Shown one piece after another: positions 53,921 to 57,720 of a DNA stretch of 64,000 nt. The DNA is from Lachnospiraceae bacterium (GTDB taxonomy: Bacteria; Bacillota; Clostridia; Lachnospirales; Lachnospiraceae). The stretch lies in NCBI GenBank assembly GCA_017460885.1, contig JAFUAB010000008.1:124001-188000 (forward strand). The letters run 5' to 3'. The notes beneath the pieces were generated by a model, which saw only the letters and a program-made list of their open reading frames with translations, was not told the origin of the DNA and made no database searches. The position numbers were made by a program, and so were the translations under genes. Each line of letters begins with the position of its first letter. Position 1 is the first letter of the stretch.

Positions 53921-54874
53921 CTACAAAATAATAAGATCTCCCAGGAATCTGTTGATTTCAGGTGTAAAATACCTATTATGCCGATACATTCCAGCATGAG
54001 GATAGAAAGTCATTTCTCCAAAAAATATCCTGTTGTTAATTATATAAAAATCCACACGAACATATCTCAATCCATCAGAAAGACTTTCCGCTGCCTCCAG
54101 AAGTTCAGCAAGGCAGGATGGTTGAGATATGACCTCATCGGTTTTATGGAATGTTCCAAAAGTCCATGTCTGCTCATTCCAATCTGTGTCATAAACAACT
54201 TGCCAGGCATTATGTGTCTTATAATCTCTGCCGCCAATGACTTGAATAAATCGGGGTTTTCCCGAGAAACAGTGCACCTTATAATCAACCAGGCTTTCTG
54301 TTCCACCCGGACCCATATATTTCTCCGCGATCACGCGTGGTACGATATCTTTATAAACCCATTCTCTATACAGAAGATAATAATCCTGTTCCAGATACCG
54401 GTTTAACTCGTTTCGAACAAGTGAATAATCCAGTTTAGTTTTATCCGTACATACGCAATTGCCCAATCCGGAATTATGAGAACATTTAATTACAAATCTT
54501 TCAGGTAATGCTTCAAAATCAACCTCATCCGCATTATCCCATATTCCGATAGTAGGAATGACGTATTCTTCTCCGAGCCTCTCCGCCACCCATTTTTTAA
54601 CTTCTACCTTATCCGCCAATATATGATACACGGGATCACGGTCATTCAATTTCAACCATTGAATCTTTTCATTAAAGCTTTGGGGATCCTCCAAATTCAA
54701 GGACTGTTCCTTCCCCAATTCATATTTCCATTGTCTCCTGATGAATCTGCCATCACTCATATGATCATACTTTCCCTGATCATACAGTGTTCTGAATCGA
54801 TAGTCTTCGTCAAGAATCATCTTGCCCATATGTTTTATTTTTATTATAGTGTTTTTCATTCCTTCACCAATCAC
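53921..54874 (-). CDS. TupA-like ATP-grasp protein
   Basis: A 317-residue protein matching the TupA-like ATP-grasp family of teichuronopeptide and polysaccharide loci: FNEKIQWLKLNDRDPVYHILADKVEVKKWV in its first third (landmark ends FNEKIQWLK and ADKVEVKKW), VIKCSHNSGLGN near the middle, and VRVDFYIINNRIFFGEMTFYPHAGM near the end. Members are thought to ligate amino acids or similar groups to glycans or act in their synthesis. GTG 54874 overlaps the previous stop; ATG 54859 with GGTG upstream is an alternative. It is coupled to the GT4 gene and so would follow the state of the proposed invertible switch. Confidence 0.85.
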   Translation of the reverse strand: MIGEGMKNTIIKIKHMGKMILDEDYRFRTLYDQGKYDHMSDGRFIRRQWKYELGKEQSLNLEDPQSFNEKIQWLKLNDRDPVYHILADKVEVKKWVAERLGEEYVIPTIGIWDNADEVDFEALPERFVIKCSHNSGLGNCVCTDKTKLDYSLVRNELNRYLEQDYYLLYREWVYKDIVPRVIAEKYMGPGGTESLVDYKVHCFSGKPRFIQVIGGRDYKTHNAWQVVYDTDWNEQTWTFGTFHKTDEVISQPSCLAELLEAAESLSDGLRYVRVDFYIINNRIFFGEMTFYPHAGMYRHNRYFTPEINRFLGDLIIL

Positions 54875-56064
54875 TTCGATAGAACTTCACTGTATATCCC
54901 AAGAGTTTTATCCAACGTATCCTTCGGCTTCATTTGCCGGATCCTTTCGAAGGCTTTTTCCCCGATAATATTCAGCTCTTCATCGGACATATTAATAATC
55001 CGGTCTGCCGTCTTAACCAGATCATCCGCACTGTCACGACCTATCAGAAAGCCGTTTACGCCGTCTGTAATCAATTGTTCAAACCCGGCTCCATTCGTCC
55101 CTATGACGGGCTTTTTCAAATACATTGCTTCAAGACAGGTATTTGGCATATTGTCAATCCTTGATGTGAGGATGACCATTTTAGCAGCCCTTATCACCGG
55201 ATACAGATCCTGTCTCGGCAAACTCCCAAGATAGATTATCCTGTCAGCATACTCCTTGGCATTTTCAGATATATATTCCATACATGTAATATACTGTCCG
55301 TCGGAAACTATACTTCGGTCCGGCCCGGAAAAAATATAGTAATATTCCTGATGGGTATCTAAAAGACGATAAATTGATTCACCAATAACCTGGATTCCTT
55401 TCATCCTGCTCAACTGTCCGAAAGTAAGAAAATATTTTTTATCTTTGATCAAGTTAAGATAATCGGATACGAAATCAGGATCATCGTCAAACTGGATATA
55501 TGGGGATTCAACGATATCTATCTTACGTCCGGTACGTGTCGAAATTATACCGGCAATTCGGGAAGACGGACCAAAAACCCGATCTGCCTTCTTTAGTGCT
55601 ATATCCTCCAGTTTATCCTGTACTGTTTCACATTTATATGCTTTATCAACGTCAAAGCCCTCTATATTACTGTTTCTCCACAATAGCGAGTCATTAGAGA
55701 TCCGAACGACCGAGGGAATTCCGGTTCTAAACAGACCTACGGCATTTGTATTGGGATATTGAACAATGTCAAAATGCTGTCCCGATCTGATCAGTTTCCG
55801 TAAGCGCCTGTTTAAATATCTGCTTTGATTTATAAGACTAAGCCATACTCGTCCCTTACCGATCAGCAACGGAGGAACACATACTCTTTCAACACGAATG
55901 CGATTTTTCCATTCAAAAGAATCATTAACATGTGACAATGTTATAATGGTGACGGAATGACCCGCATCTGCCAGAATGGAGGAAATATTAGCAAGATATG
56001 ATGCCAGGCCACCGCCTTTTACTTTTTCGGTTACAAACTCAAACGTAACGAAAACAATTTTCAC
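54871..56064 (-). CDS. GT4 family glycosyltransferase
   Basis: A 397-residue GT-B enzyme: KIVFVTFEFVTEKVKGGGLASYLANI at the N-terminus (landmark KIVFVTFEF ... GGGLASYL), FLTFGQLSRMKGIQVI and TSRIDNMPNTCLEAMYLKKPVIG in the C-terminal half. The start is GTG 56064 with GGAGAG six bases upstream. The first recombination site (56079-56103) lies 15 bases before the start codon, between it and two TATAAT hexamers, so its transcription may depend on the orientation of the adjacent segment. Confidence 0.9.
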   Translation of the reverse strand: MKIVFVTFEFVTEKVKGGGLASYLANISSILADAGHSVTIITLSHVNDSFEWKNRIRVERVCVPPLLIGKGRVWLSLINQSRYLNRRLRKLIRSGQHFDIVQYPNTNAVGLFRTGIPSVVRISNDSLLWRNSNIEGFDVDKAYKCETVQDKLEDIALKKADRVFGPSSRIAGIISTRTGRKIDIVESPYIQFDDDPDFVSDYLNLIKDKKYFLTFGQLSRMKGIQVIGESIYRLLDTHQEYYYIFSGPDRSIVSDGQYITCMEYISENAKEYADRIIYLGSLPRQDLYPVIRAAKMVILTSRIDNMPNTCLEAMYLKKPVIGTNGAGFEQLITDGVNGFLIGRDSADDLVKTADRIINMSDEELNIIGEKAFERIRQMKPKDTLDKTLGIYSEVLSK

Positions 56065-56078
56065 AGATCACTCTCCAA

Positions 56079-56103
56079 TTAACATTTTGCATAAAATGGT
56101 AAC
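56079..56103. other. Candidate recombination site, left (inverted partner of 56750-56774)
   Basis: The 25-bp sequence TTAACATTTT-GCAT-AAAATGGTAAC is nearly palindromic around an asymmetric GCAT core. Its reverse complement matches 56750-56774 at 24 of 25 positions, in opposite orientation. Two half-sites around a short core are the usual substrate of a tyrosine recombinase, and such a gene lies between the two copies. Confidence 0.72.
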
Positions 56104-56142
56104 TGTTCAGGACACATAAAACGCATCAACAAAAACACGACT

Positions 56143-56171
56143 ATTATACACGAAATATGATTATAATGCCA
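56143..56171 (-). promoter_or_regulatory. Promoter candidate inside the invertible segment, facing the GT4 gene
   Basis: On the minus strand a perfect TATAAT lies at 56143-56148 and another at 56160-56165. The first has only a weak -35 candidate (TGGCAT, 17 bases upstream), inside the 3' end of the recombinase gene. It would transcribe through the left recombination site into the GT4 and TupA-like genes. If the segment inverts, the same promoter would face the GT2 gene at 56788. Confidence 0.45.
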
Positions 56172-56730
56172 TCAATTCAAATACCCGGTCCTTTTCGTCC
56201 TGATCGATTCCTAAGTACCTGCGGGTGATCTCGTAGGATGAATGATTATAGATTTCCATGATCACAGCTATATTTGCACCTTTGCTCATTGCCTGATATC
56301 CAAAAGTTTTTCTGAGTGAGTGACAACTCACGTTTTCCAGTCCAATTTTCGTGGCAGCCTTTTTTATAATCTTATAAGCAGATACACGTGATAATGGGAC
56401 GTCATGGTTATCCTTTGGAGAAAAAACAAACTGGTTGGGCATGGGATTAATGATTTCCCTATATGTCATTAATGCCATGGCTGCCTGATGATTTATTCGC
56501 ATCTGGTTTTGTTTTTGCGTTTTTTTCTCGAAAATCCGCAAATGCGTTTTTGGAAGGTTGTGTGGATAATCATATACGTCGTTCCACTTAAGCCTCAATA
56601 AGTCGCTTATACGTAATGGGATATTTATTCCAACCACAAACAAGCAGTAATCCCTATAGTTCTGATTGATCAAAAGTTCCTTAAGCAGATAAATGTCATG
56701 TTCTTTTCTAATGGGTTCCGTAGTGCTCAT
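56161..56730 (-). CDS. Small tyrosine recombinase (FimB-sized), candidate invertase
   Basis: A 189-residue protein with the full catalytic set: Arg40 (PLRISDLLRL), a Lys near 69-73, His137 and Arg140 (HSLRKTFGY), His163 (NHSS) and Tyr172 (RRYLGI). It has no N-terminal SAM-like core-binding domain, so it is about as short as FimB/FimE, which invert promoter segments. GGAGG stands directly before ATG 56730; a longer frame to 56784 would run through the right recombination site. Two inverted, near-palindromic sites flank it. A consensus-like promoter for it lies outside the segment at 56806-56834. It probably inverts the segment that carries its own gene. Confidence 0.88.
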   Translation of the reverse strand: MSTTEPIRKEHDIYLLKELLINQNYRDYCLFVVGINIPLRISDLLRLKWNDVYDYPHNLPKTHLRIFEKKTQKQNQMRINHQAAMALMTYREIINPMPNQFVFSPKDNHDVPLSRVSAYKIIKKAATKIGLENVSCHSLRKTFGYQAMSKGANIAVIMEIYNHSSYEITRRYLGIDQDEKDRVFELMAL

Positions 56731-56746
56731 TTTAATCCTCCGTGCG

Positions 56747-56778
56747 ATGGTTAACATTTTATGCAAAATGTTAACCAT
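56747..56778. other. Candidate recombination site, right
   Basis: Two perfect 14-bp arms (ATGGTTAACATTTT and AAAATGTTAACCAT) surround an ATGC core. The inner 25 bp (56750-56774) match the left site in inverted orientation. The site lies 16 bases upstream of the recombinase start and reaches into the 5' region of the GT2 frame; the ATGC core holds the first in-frame ATG of that frame (56761). No T-run follows on either strand, so a terminator is unlikely. Confidence 0.75.
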
Positions 56779-56787
56779 TATCAATAC

Positions 56788-57720
56788 ATGCGAGAAGTAT
56801 CGGTCATTATAACAACATATAATCGCCCTGCCAAAACCCTTTGCCGTGCGGTTGCAAGCGTGGCTGCACAGACATATCCCGATATTAATCTGGCAATTGT
56901 CGATGATAATCCTGACAATGACAAATTATCGGATGACACGATACGGCTACTCAATGATACGTACGGTAAAAAAATACTATACTTATCGTATAAAGGCAGC
57001 AAAGGCGCTTGCTTCGCCAGAAACTACGGAGTGAAAAATACCATTGGAGATTATATATCCTTTTTAGATGATGATGACGAATGGCTGCCTGACAAAATAG
57101 CCGAACAGGTTGCCGTGATCGAAAGCAAAAACTGTGCTATGGTTACCTGTGATTCAAACCTCGTACAGTTTGATAATGACGGAAATCCATTTGAGGAAGA
57201 CTCATCATATACGGAGAGTGTCACAATAACCCGCGAGGATCTTTTCACTCAGGGCAATGTCATTGGCGGAGCCTCATTCCCTCTGATGCGAAGGGATTGC
57301 TTTATCAACGCCGGAGGATTTACCGAGGGTCTGAAAGCCTGTCAGGATTGGGACTTATGGATAAGGATGCTGGCCACGGGAACTGCAGTACGAATACCTA
57401 AAGCCCTGACAAAATATTACTGGACTCCAGGAGCAAACATCTCTATGAATTGGGATAGCAAGTTTGAGGGGATCTCATATATGATCAGGACTCATGCAGA
57501 TCTTGCTCCGAATAAAAAAGGATGGATTGCACAACAATATCTGTTTCTGGCTGATTTGGCTTTAACTCTCAAACGATATAATGACACTATACGATATTCA
57601 TCAAAAGCCATGTTAACATGGCCATCAGTAAAAGTCATAAAAAAATCATTCACCCAGGTTATTACTCTTTTGAAGTTATGTGTTTGGTACCAGATCAGAT
57701 ATCACCAAGCAGGTAAATGA
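56788..57720 (+). CDS. GT2 family glycosyltransferase, orphan on the plus strand
   Basis: A soluble GT-A enzyme of about 310 residues: EVSVIITTYNRPAKTLCRAV, ISFLDDDDEWLPDKI (the DXD region), ACQDWDLWIRMLATG. It is a normal, intact glycosyltransferase. ATG 56788 is chosen because it starts the conserved domain; ATG 56761 in the recombination-site core gives nine more residues. Neither has a Shine-Dalgarno sequence. No plus-strand promoter is evident in the present orientation, so the gene may be silent until the adjacent segment inverts. Its 5' part hides a strong minus-strand promoter. It ends exactly where the convergent nitroreductase gene ends. Confidence 0.85.
   Translation: MREVSVIITTYNRPAKTLCRAVASVAAQTYPDINLAIVDDNPDNDKLSDDTIRLLNDTYGKKILYLSYKGSKGACFARNYGVKNTIGDYISFLDDDDEWLPDKIAEQVAVIESKNCAMVTCDSNLVQFDNDGNPFEEDSSYTESVTITREDLFTQGNVIGGASFPLMRRDCFINAGGFTEGLKACQDWDLWIRMLATGTAVRIPKALTKYYWTPGANISMNWDSKFEGISYMIRTHADLAPNKKGWIAQQYLFLADLALTLKRYNDTIRYSSKAMLTWPSVKVIKKSFTQVITLLKLCVWYQIRYHQAGK
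56806..56834 (-). promoter_or_regulatory. Strong SigA-type promoter of the recombinase, inside the GT2 coding sequence
   Basis: On the minus strand TTGGCA (56829-56834), 17 bases, TATAAT (56806-56811): eleven of twelve consensus positions at optimal spacing. Transcription would begin near 56799, pass through the right recombination site and reach the recombinase GGAGG and ATG. It lies outside the invertible segment, so inversion would disconnect the recombinase from it. Confidence 0.75.

Follow-up and report, generated by a model that had tools for sequence, protein, structure and literature searches.

A probable self-inverting promoter cassette between two glycosyltransferase units of a Lachnospiraceae genome, and its relatives among Clostridia

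The 64,000-nt stretch of Lachnospiraceae DNA analysed here (referred to below as the window) contains a small tyrosine recombinase gene placed between two divergent glycosyltransferase units (Table 1). The left unit begins with a GT4 glycosyltransferase gene and a TupA-like ATP-grasp gene and is continued by more minus-strand ORFs; the GT4 Shine-Dalgarno sequence (GGAGAG, 56071-56076) is located just outside the left site and the segment. On the right lies a GT2 glycosyltransferase gene, an intact ORF of 310–319 aa with a full GT2 domain, the 3' end of which abuts a minus-strand gene with a nitroreductase domain. An alternative in-frame ATG of GT2 is found at 56761, inside the right site, and no Shine-Dalgarno sequence is visible ahead of this gene in either orientation of the segment.

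Table 1 Features of the recombinase locus and its neighbours (window positions)
Feature	Position	Strand	Description and basis
TupA-like ATP-grasp protein	53921..54874	-	second gene of left unit; Pfam
GT4 glycosyltransferase	54871..56064	-	first gene of left unit; ORF and Pfam
Left recombination site	56079..56103		outer half TTAACATTTT, core GCAT, inner half AAAATGGTAAC
Segment predicted to invert	56104..56749		646 bp; basis: inverted repeat, with the inversion itself inferred
Candidate outward promoter ATGGCA-18-TATAAT	56143..56172	-	10/12; inside segment, at recombinase 3' end, directed toward GT4
Tyrosine recombinase	56161..56730	-	189 aa; ATG at 56730, stop at 56161-56163
Recombinase Shine-Dalgarno GGAGGA	56736..56741	-	within segment; basis: sequence
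Right recombination site	56750..56774		inner half GTTAACATTTT, core ATGC, outer half AAAATGTTAA
Candidate recombinase promoter TTGATA-17-TAAAAT	56756..56784	-	straddles right site: -10 in site, -35 outside
GT2 glycosyltransferase	56788..57720	+	lone gene; ORF and Pfam
Candidate recombinase promoter TTGGCA-17-TATAAT, preceded by TG	56806..56834	-	outside segment, antisense in GT2 5' end

The two sites form an inverted repeat of 25 nt (24/25 complementary) with 646 nt between the arms. Both are near-palindromic, each with an asymmetric 4-nt core, and the right one is set within a 32-bp palindrome (56747-56778) that is interrupted by the core alone and extends to perfect 14-nt arms (56747-56760 and 56765-56778). 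According to the repeat search, the genome search and the shuffles, this inverted pair exceeds chance: the pattern TTAACATTTTNNNNAAAATGTTAA, with at most three mismatches, matched only the two sites in the window (shuffle mean, 0.01), and, the redundant contig aside, no further copy of the 25-mer was found at the same tolerance in the whole 3.6-Mb source genome. The locus is present on two contigs of this genome, C32 and C38, which are redundant copies of one ~104-kb stretch (99.977–99.995% identical in two alignments, with nine mismatches in total and, judging from the coordinates, a length gap of ~117 bp of tandem repeat), so the source genome has a single locus in a single orientation. Two possibilities were rejected on these grounds, namely, two natural genomic copies of the cassette, because the contigs are redundant, and a master recombinase serving several switches, because the genome has no other site with three or fewer mismatches. 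This assembly redundancy may also account for part of the 6.64% contamination of the source genome (G000).

The recombinase matched PF00589 with 77.2 bits (cut-off, 27.1). Alignment with Xer-type chains placed the catalytic residues R40, K70/K73, H137, R140, H163, and Y172, and each of these positions is conserved in 170–172 of the 172 aligned rows of the family. At the same time, the protein fell below the cut-offs of all nine NCBIfam models matched at E ≤ 0.01, with 68.8 of 220, 52.4 of 329.6, and 45.5 of 335.15 bits for the XerA, XerD, and XerC equivalogs; among the tyrosine-type DNA invertase models, NF007371 (FimE) gave 38.1 of 222 bits and NF007370 (FimB) gave 25.1 of 221. The anatomy given by an earlier sequence-only reading of this DNA (a 189-residue recombinase with its catalytic residues, two inverted 25-bp near-palindromes with GCAT and ATGC cores, and GT4/TupA-like and GT2 neighbours on the minus and plus strands) was borne out by the Pfam matches, the ORFs, and the repeat search with its shuffles. 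That reading had also placed a leftward promoter candidate inside the segment. One candidate with an 18-bp spacer exists there, and homologous cassettes carry promoters in the matching interval; however, a promoter scan of 55900-57000 returned seven promoter-like sites against 4.0 ± 1.7 in shuffles, so any single site is weak evidence. In the same scanned stretch, no plus-strand promoter-like site was found ahead of GT2.

Relatives of the recombinase were sampled from four sources, the genome sets of which overlap: 195 genomes, 33 of them with a match at E ≤ 1e-20; 397 genomes of one family, 37 of them with a match at E ≤ 1e-25 (the family was taken as Lachnospiraceae, inferred from the fact that loci L090 and L122 belong there); 77 genomes of one genus, 40 of them with a match; and a named contig collection with 63 loci. 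The window's own genome is included in the first two counts of matches. The 175 loci counted each had at least about 110 aligned residues. The recombinase was enclosed by an inverted pair of sites in 74 of them and had such a pair just upstream in 44, and neither layout was recognised in the other 57, which take in loci truncated at contig ends and the greater part of one divergent clade. The intersite distance was 646–950 bp in 69 of the 74 enclosing cassettes, with a median of 749. Most family sites are of the recurring type GYAACA-N12/13-TGTTRC with locus-specific cores, and the window site is its TTAACA variant. A loss of the sites from relatives that retain the recombinase, which the sequence-only reading had named as evidence against itself, is thus not what the 74 enclosing and 44 upstream-pair loci show. 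Long segments were observed between the sites of L154 (2429 bp), L156 (1717 bp), L090 (1635 bp), L171 (1309 bp), and L122 (1211 bp), those of L154 and L156 containing sizeable additional ORFs beside the recombinase. The contigs of L052 and L152 stop within about 20 bp past the distal site, a pattern that mixed orientations in a population might produce.

In a FastTree tree of 172 rows, in which support was under 80 on 62 of the 169 inner branches, the enclosing and upstream layouts were separated by four changes, and flagellin and other targets among the enclosing loci by a single one. The window recombinase formed a long branch outside every well-supported set. Its nearest rows by path were L090 (glycan), L058 (no pair), L154 (flagellin), L057 (no pair), and L155 (glycan), the flagellin-type L154 being nearly as near as L090, the nearest glycan row, and its placement in the tree is unsure. 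No close relative of the window locus was found among the sampled genomes, the best having 50% protein identity, and the locus was absent from all six other genomes of its genus.

The majority of the enclosing cassettes (62 of 74) adjoin csrA and/or flagellin; L160, in which the csrA start is at the contig end, is a 63rd flagellin-type cassette that was left out of this number. In 53 of these 62 cassettes, the interval from the recombinase stop to the distal site contained an outward promoter of sigma28 consensus type (TAAA-N15-CCGATA type), whereas 200 dinucleotide shuffles gave 1.12 on average and at most 5. Note that the sigma28 and promoter patterns were written after a first look at 27 loci; the sigma28 promoter was present in all 42 loci of the genus set, the sequences of which were unseen beforehand, and in 11 of 20 loci of the first, more diverse set. 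The sigmaA-like score was not enriched in the same interval (3/62; shuffle mean, 4.4). A sigma28 match on one side or the other was present in 55 loci; in 54 of these, the promoter was directed away from csrA/flagellin, and in L184 alone it was aimed at csrA-fliC. The other 7 of the 62 had no match. Additionally, a T-run was located just past the distal site in 41/62 of the flagellin cassettes and past the proximal site in 3/62, which makes the distal site terminator-like, so that the promoter in the assembled state would run into a terminator-like hairpin. The nearly uniform direction of the promoter indicates either that switching is rare or that one state is strongly favoured.

A subgroup of four loci (L164, L167, L168, and L171) carries csrA-fliC at the 3' side of the recombinase gene. 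The sigma28-type promoter is found at the 5' side in L168 and L171, still directed away from the target, and no match was detected in L164 and L167; the recombinase of L167 is interrupted by one in-frame stop (TAA). In L163, located in a single-contig genome (G460:C1), the recombinase adjoins flagellin with one recognised site and no sigma28 match alongside, and this locus is possibly a decayed cassette. Only one site was recognised in L153.

Ten of the remaining 12 enclosing cassettes (the window, L090, L122, L155, L158, L174, L196, L203, L210, and L212) adjoin surface-polymer genes; the other two are the flagellin-type L160 and L064, which has other neighbours. Among the 18 proteins encoded by the two nearest neighbours of the nine glycan loci other than the window, 16 had Pfam matches (glycerophosphotransferase, epimerases, NeuB, GT2, GT4, pyruvyl transferase, IspD-like, SIS, TPP enzyme, and radical SAM) and two were unmatched. 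Eight of the ten glycan cassettes, the window included, are flanked by divergent units, and L155 and L210 are located in one-directional clusters. A sigmaA-like promoter scoring at least 10/12 was found before the distal site, directed toward the distal unit, in 5 of the 10 (shuffle mean, 1.11; maximum, 4), and one scoring at least 9/12 in 9 of the 10 (shuffle mean, 5.2; as high in 1 of 200 shuffles), although the interval of L090, at ~1 kb, is likely to contain a match by chance. These matches are suggestive of promoters suited to glycan operons, more weakly than the sigma28 result is for flagellin. The exception was L122, with no sigmaA-like promoter of at least 9/12 in its interval. L122 has its NeuB operon on the U side, and L196 and L210 have theirs on the D side; due to this absence of a promoter and the distant tree position of L122, the difference was not counted as a flip.

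A natural inversion was found in the family, in L184 (G546:C5:59850-63422), which is inverted relative to six relatives (L181, L183, L185, L189, L190, and L216). All seven belong to one genus and one well-supported clade, every genome being a different species. The L184 segment aligns in the same direction as the segments of the relatives (73–75% identity), and its D flank matches, in reverse orientation, the U flank of each of the six (75–86% over 187–926 nt), with an extra 40-nt piece at 92.5%. Where segment and flanks meet in L184, the csrA leader has traded places with the T-run side, and the outer half-sites have moved with the flanks; judged by sequence, recombination within the core of the sites would be expected to give this product. 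The far side of L184 shares no long-range homology with the D flanks of the relatives, the sole match at E ≤ 0.01 being 25 nt at the L185 junction, so on that side the comparison is carried by the junction sequence; the D flanks are alike solely among L181, L185, and L189. A search of the family from G546 yielded no additional cassette-bearing genome beyond those already sampled, and the genera of G242, G285, G022, and G429 offer three, one, one, and three genomes, respectively, for a flip search. The inverted orientation anticipated by the sequence-only reading is thus seen in one family cassette but not at the window locus, which appears in one orientation on its two redundant contigs and has no close relative.

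These results make it probable that positions 56079-56774 form a self-contained, invertible promoter cassette that phase-varies one or two surface-glycan units, and, by analogy with the family, the cassette is most likely self-inverting. The recombinase would act on both sites, with strand exchange in the central core, and would invert the 646-bp segment along with its own gene. In the assembled state (A), the internal promoter, read from 56172 to 56143, would drive transcription across the left site and on into the GT4/TupA operon, and the recombinase could be read from the right flank. In the inverted state (B), this promoter would face GT2 across the right site, leaving the GT4 operon without it, and the recombinase would be stripped of both right-flank candidate promoters, with none recognisable left. 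The locus anatomy suggests in this way that transcription would change with each inversion and that the cassette would couple recombinase expression to orientation. A promoter of at least 9/12 is available to the window recombinase in the present orientation only, so the flipped state might be locked. As a general rule, cassettes resting with a silent recombinase could not be accepted, since the counts were mixed: among the 62 flagellin cassettes, a promoter of at least 9/12 into the recombinase was found for 42 in the assembled form and for 28 in the inverted form, and among the 12 other enclosing cassettes the numbers were 5 and 9.

The role of GT2 as a switch target is uncertain. A cassette that inverts and switches the GT4/TupA operon on and off alone, with GT2 as a bystander or a poorly translated remnant, is a serious contender, to which we give somewhat less than an even chance; it is a narrower form of the main explanation, and the confidences in the two overlap. 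The missing Shine-Dalgarno sequence of GT2, its start in or just past the site, the absence of a plus-strand promoter-like site ahead of it in the scanned stretch, and the two glycan cassettes located in one-directional clusters are all consistent with this narrower role, whereas the divergent units around the other eight and the intact GT2 frame with its full domain speak for a second target. The choice between two glycan units, as proposed from the sequence alone, is thus plausible in view of the eight divergent cassettes.

It is unlikely that the arrangement was inherited as a locked or decayed cassette in which the switch no longer turns. The single orientation at the window would fit such a state, as would the relatives with a broken recombinase (L167) or one recognised site (L163 and L153), but the window recombinase ORF is intact, its catalytic positions are the conserved ones, and its sites agree at 24 of 25 positions. 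A very improbable origin is a tiny mobile element inserted between genes, with the two sites as its ends: occurrence is patchy (33/195 and 37/397 genomes, and 0/6 other members of the genus), and plasmids and phages carry homologues (<60% identity) with integrase annotations, but integrase products would carry direct sites, while these are inverted, 62 of the 74 enclosing cassettes adjoin csrA/fliC, and a transposon would not be expected to contain an internal promoter suited in type to the target gene. Finally, palindromes acting as operators or terminators, with a recombinase-like protein that regulates transcription with no strand exchange, would accommodate the -10 box inside the right site and the terminator-like distal sites of the flagellin cassettes, but the flanks exchanged at the sites of L184 and the catalytic residues conserved in 170–172 of 172 aligned proteins leave this with hardly any probability.

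Beyond the invertible promoter cassette proposed for the window, the family may represent a widespread, interchangeable phase-variation module of one clostridial family, consisting of self-flipping promoter cassettes; taken as a whole, the following description seems to us evenly balanced between right and wrong. Each module would combine a recombinase, an outward promoter, and two sites, mostly with 0.65–0.95 kb between them; the promoter would be matched to the target, sigma28 by csrA/flagellin and sigmaA by glycan operons; and each flip would reset recombinase transcription, with the window cassette toggling two divergent glycan units.

Two classical switches share parts of this design. In the Hin system with fljBA, a serine recombinase gene lies inside the inverted segment together with an outward promoter. 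FimB and FimE are small tyrosine recombinases with no N-terminal domain that act on inverted repeats around an invertible promoter of a surface structure, their genes being located outside the ~300-bp segment. The cassettes described here share with Hin the recombinase enclosed in its own segment (the inversion at the window being predicted), the outward promoter (a candidate at the window), and, for the flagellin class, a flagellin target; they differ in the small tyrosine recombinase (PF00589), the other sites, the glycan or sigma28-flagellin targets, and the occurrence in Clostridia. The fim switch has in common with them the small tyrosine recombinase, inverted repeats, (at the window, putative) invertible promoter, and surface target, while the window recombinase lies inside the segment and below the cut-offs of the invertase models. 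Hin is therefore a precedent for a recombinase gene placed within the segment that it inverts, and the novelty that the sequence-only reading had attached to this arrangement was overstated, but no description of the present cassette family, in its sigma28-flagellin or its two-sided glycan form, was found in the accessible literature (listed titles and starts of abstracts, with few subscription papers or preprints).

If the module reading is true, these Clostridia share a recognisable switch that serves both flagellin and surface glycans, structures targeted by host immunity and phages, and the cassette family would be a tyrosine-recombinase counterpart of the Hin flagellar switch. It raises the question of why the sigma28 promoter points away from flagellin in all loci with a match except L184. 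The layout (site type, enclosed recombinase, and promoter at its 3' end) is easily annotated, so existing long reads can be used to determine the orientation.

Other systems can be compared within the available text of the sources. The Hin-containing segment of Salmonella lies between hixL and hixR (PMC9368917). RecV of Clostridioides difficile acts on several switches, flagellar and cwpV, and the flagellar switch is 154 bp with 21-bp repeats, AAGTTRCTATWTTACAAAAAA (PMC5386303, PMC5903667). As described there, it resembles the present family as a clostridial tyrosine recombinase with short inverted repeats and a flagellar or surface target; however, a 154-bp flagellar switch is too short to contain the recombinase, and the repeat is unlike GYAACA-N12/13-TGTTRC. 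The window recombinase also differs from the RecV type by being enclosed and having no other site in its genome with three or fewer mismatches. In Streptococcus pneumoniae, the tyrosine recombinase PsrA/CreX is encoded in the hsdS locus that it inverts (PMC7096588), which is a shared feature, but, as far as that text describes, hsdS coding sequence is shuffled there and no promoter cassette is involved. Closest to the second layout of the family is hCom2 inverton group 139 with invertase group 35 (Clostridia), in which, according to the available text, a tyrosine recombinase lies by short invertons and two of these invertons change orientation in passages, the recombinases being near the invertons, unlike enclosed cassettes (PMC11892184). 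The word stem "flagell" does not occur in the main text of that paper. Likened by description, this group may correspond to the upstream-pair layout.

In sequence terms, the upstream-pair layout is a sister layout with a small, putatively invertible segment outside the gene. In these 44 loci (for example, L026, L028, L092, L108, and L133), the sites are 91–191 bp apart, with a distance of 100–130 bp in 35 of them. Named records with this layout include Oscillospiraceae, Family XIII, Defluviitaleaceae, and Synergistales bins, and one of the named bins, WQSG01, carries several copies of the recombinase.
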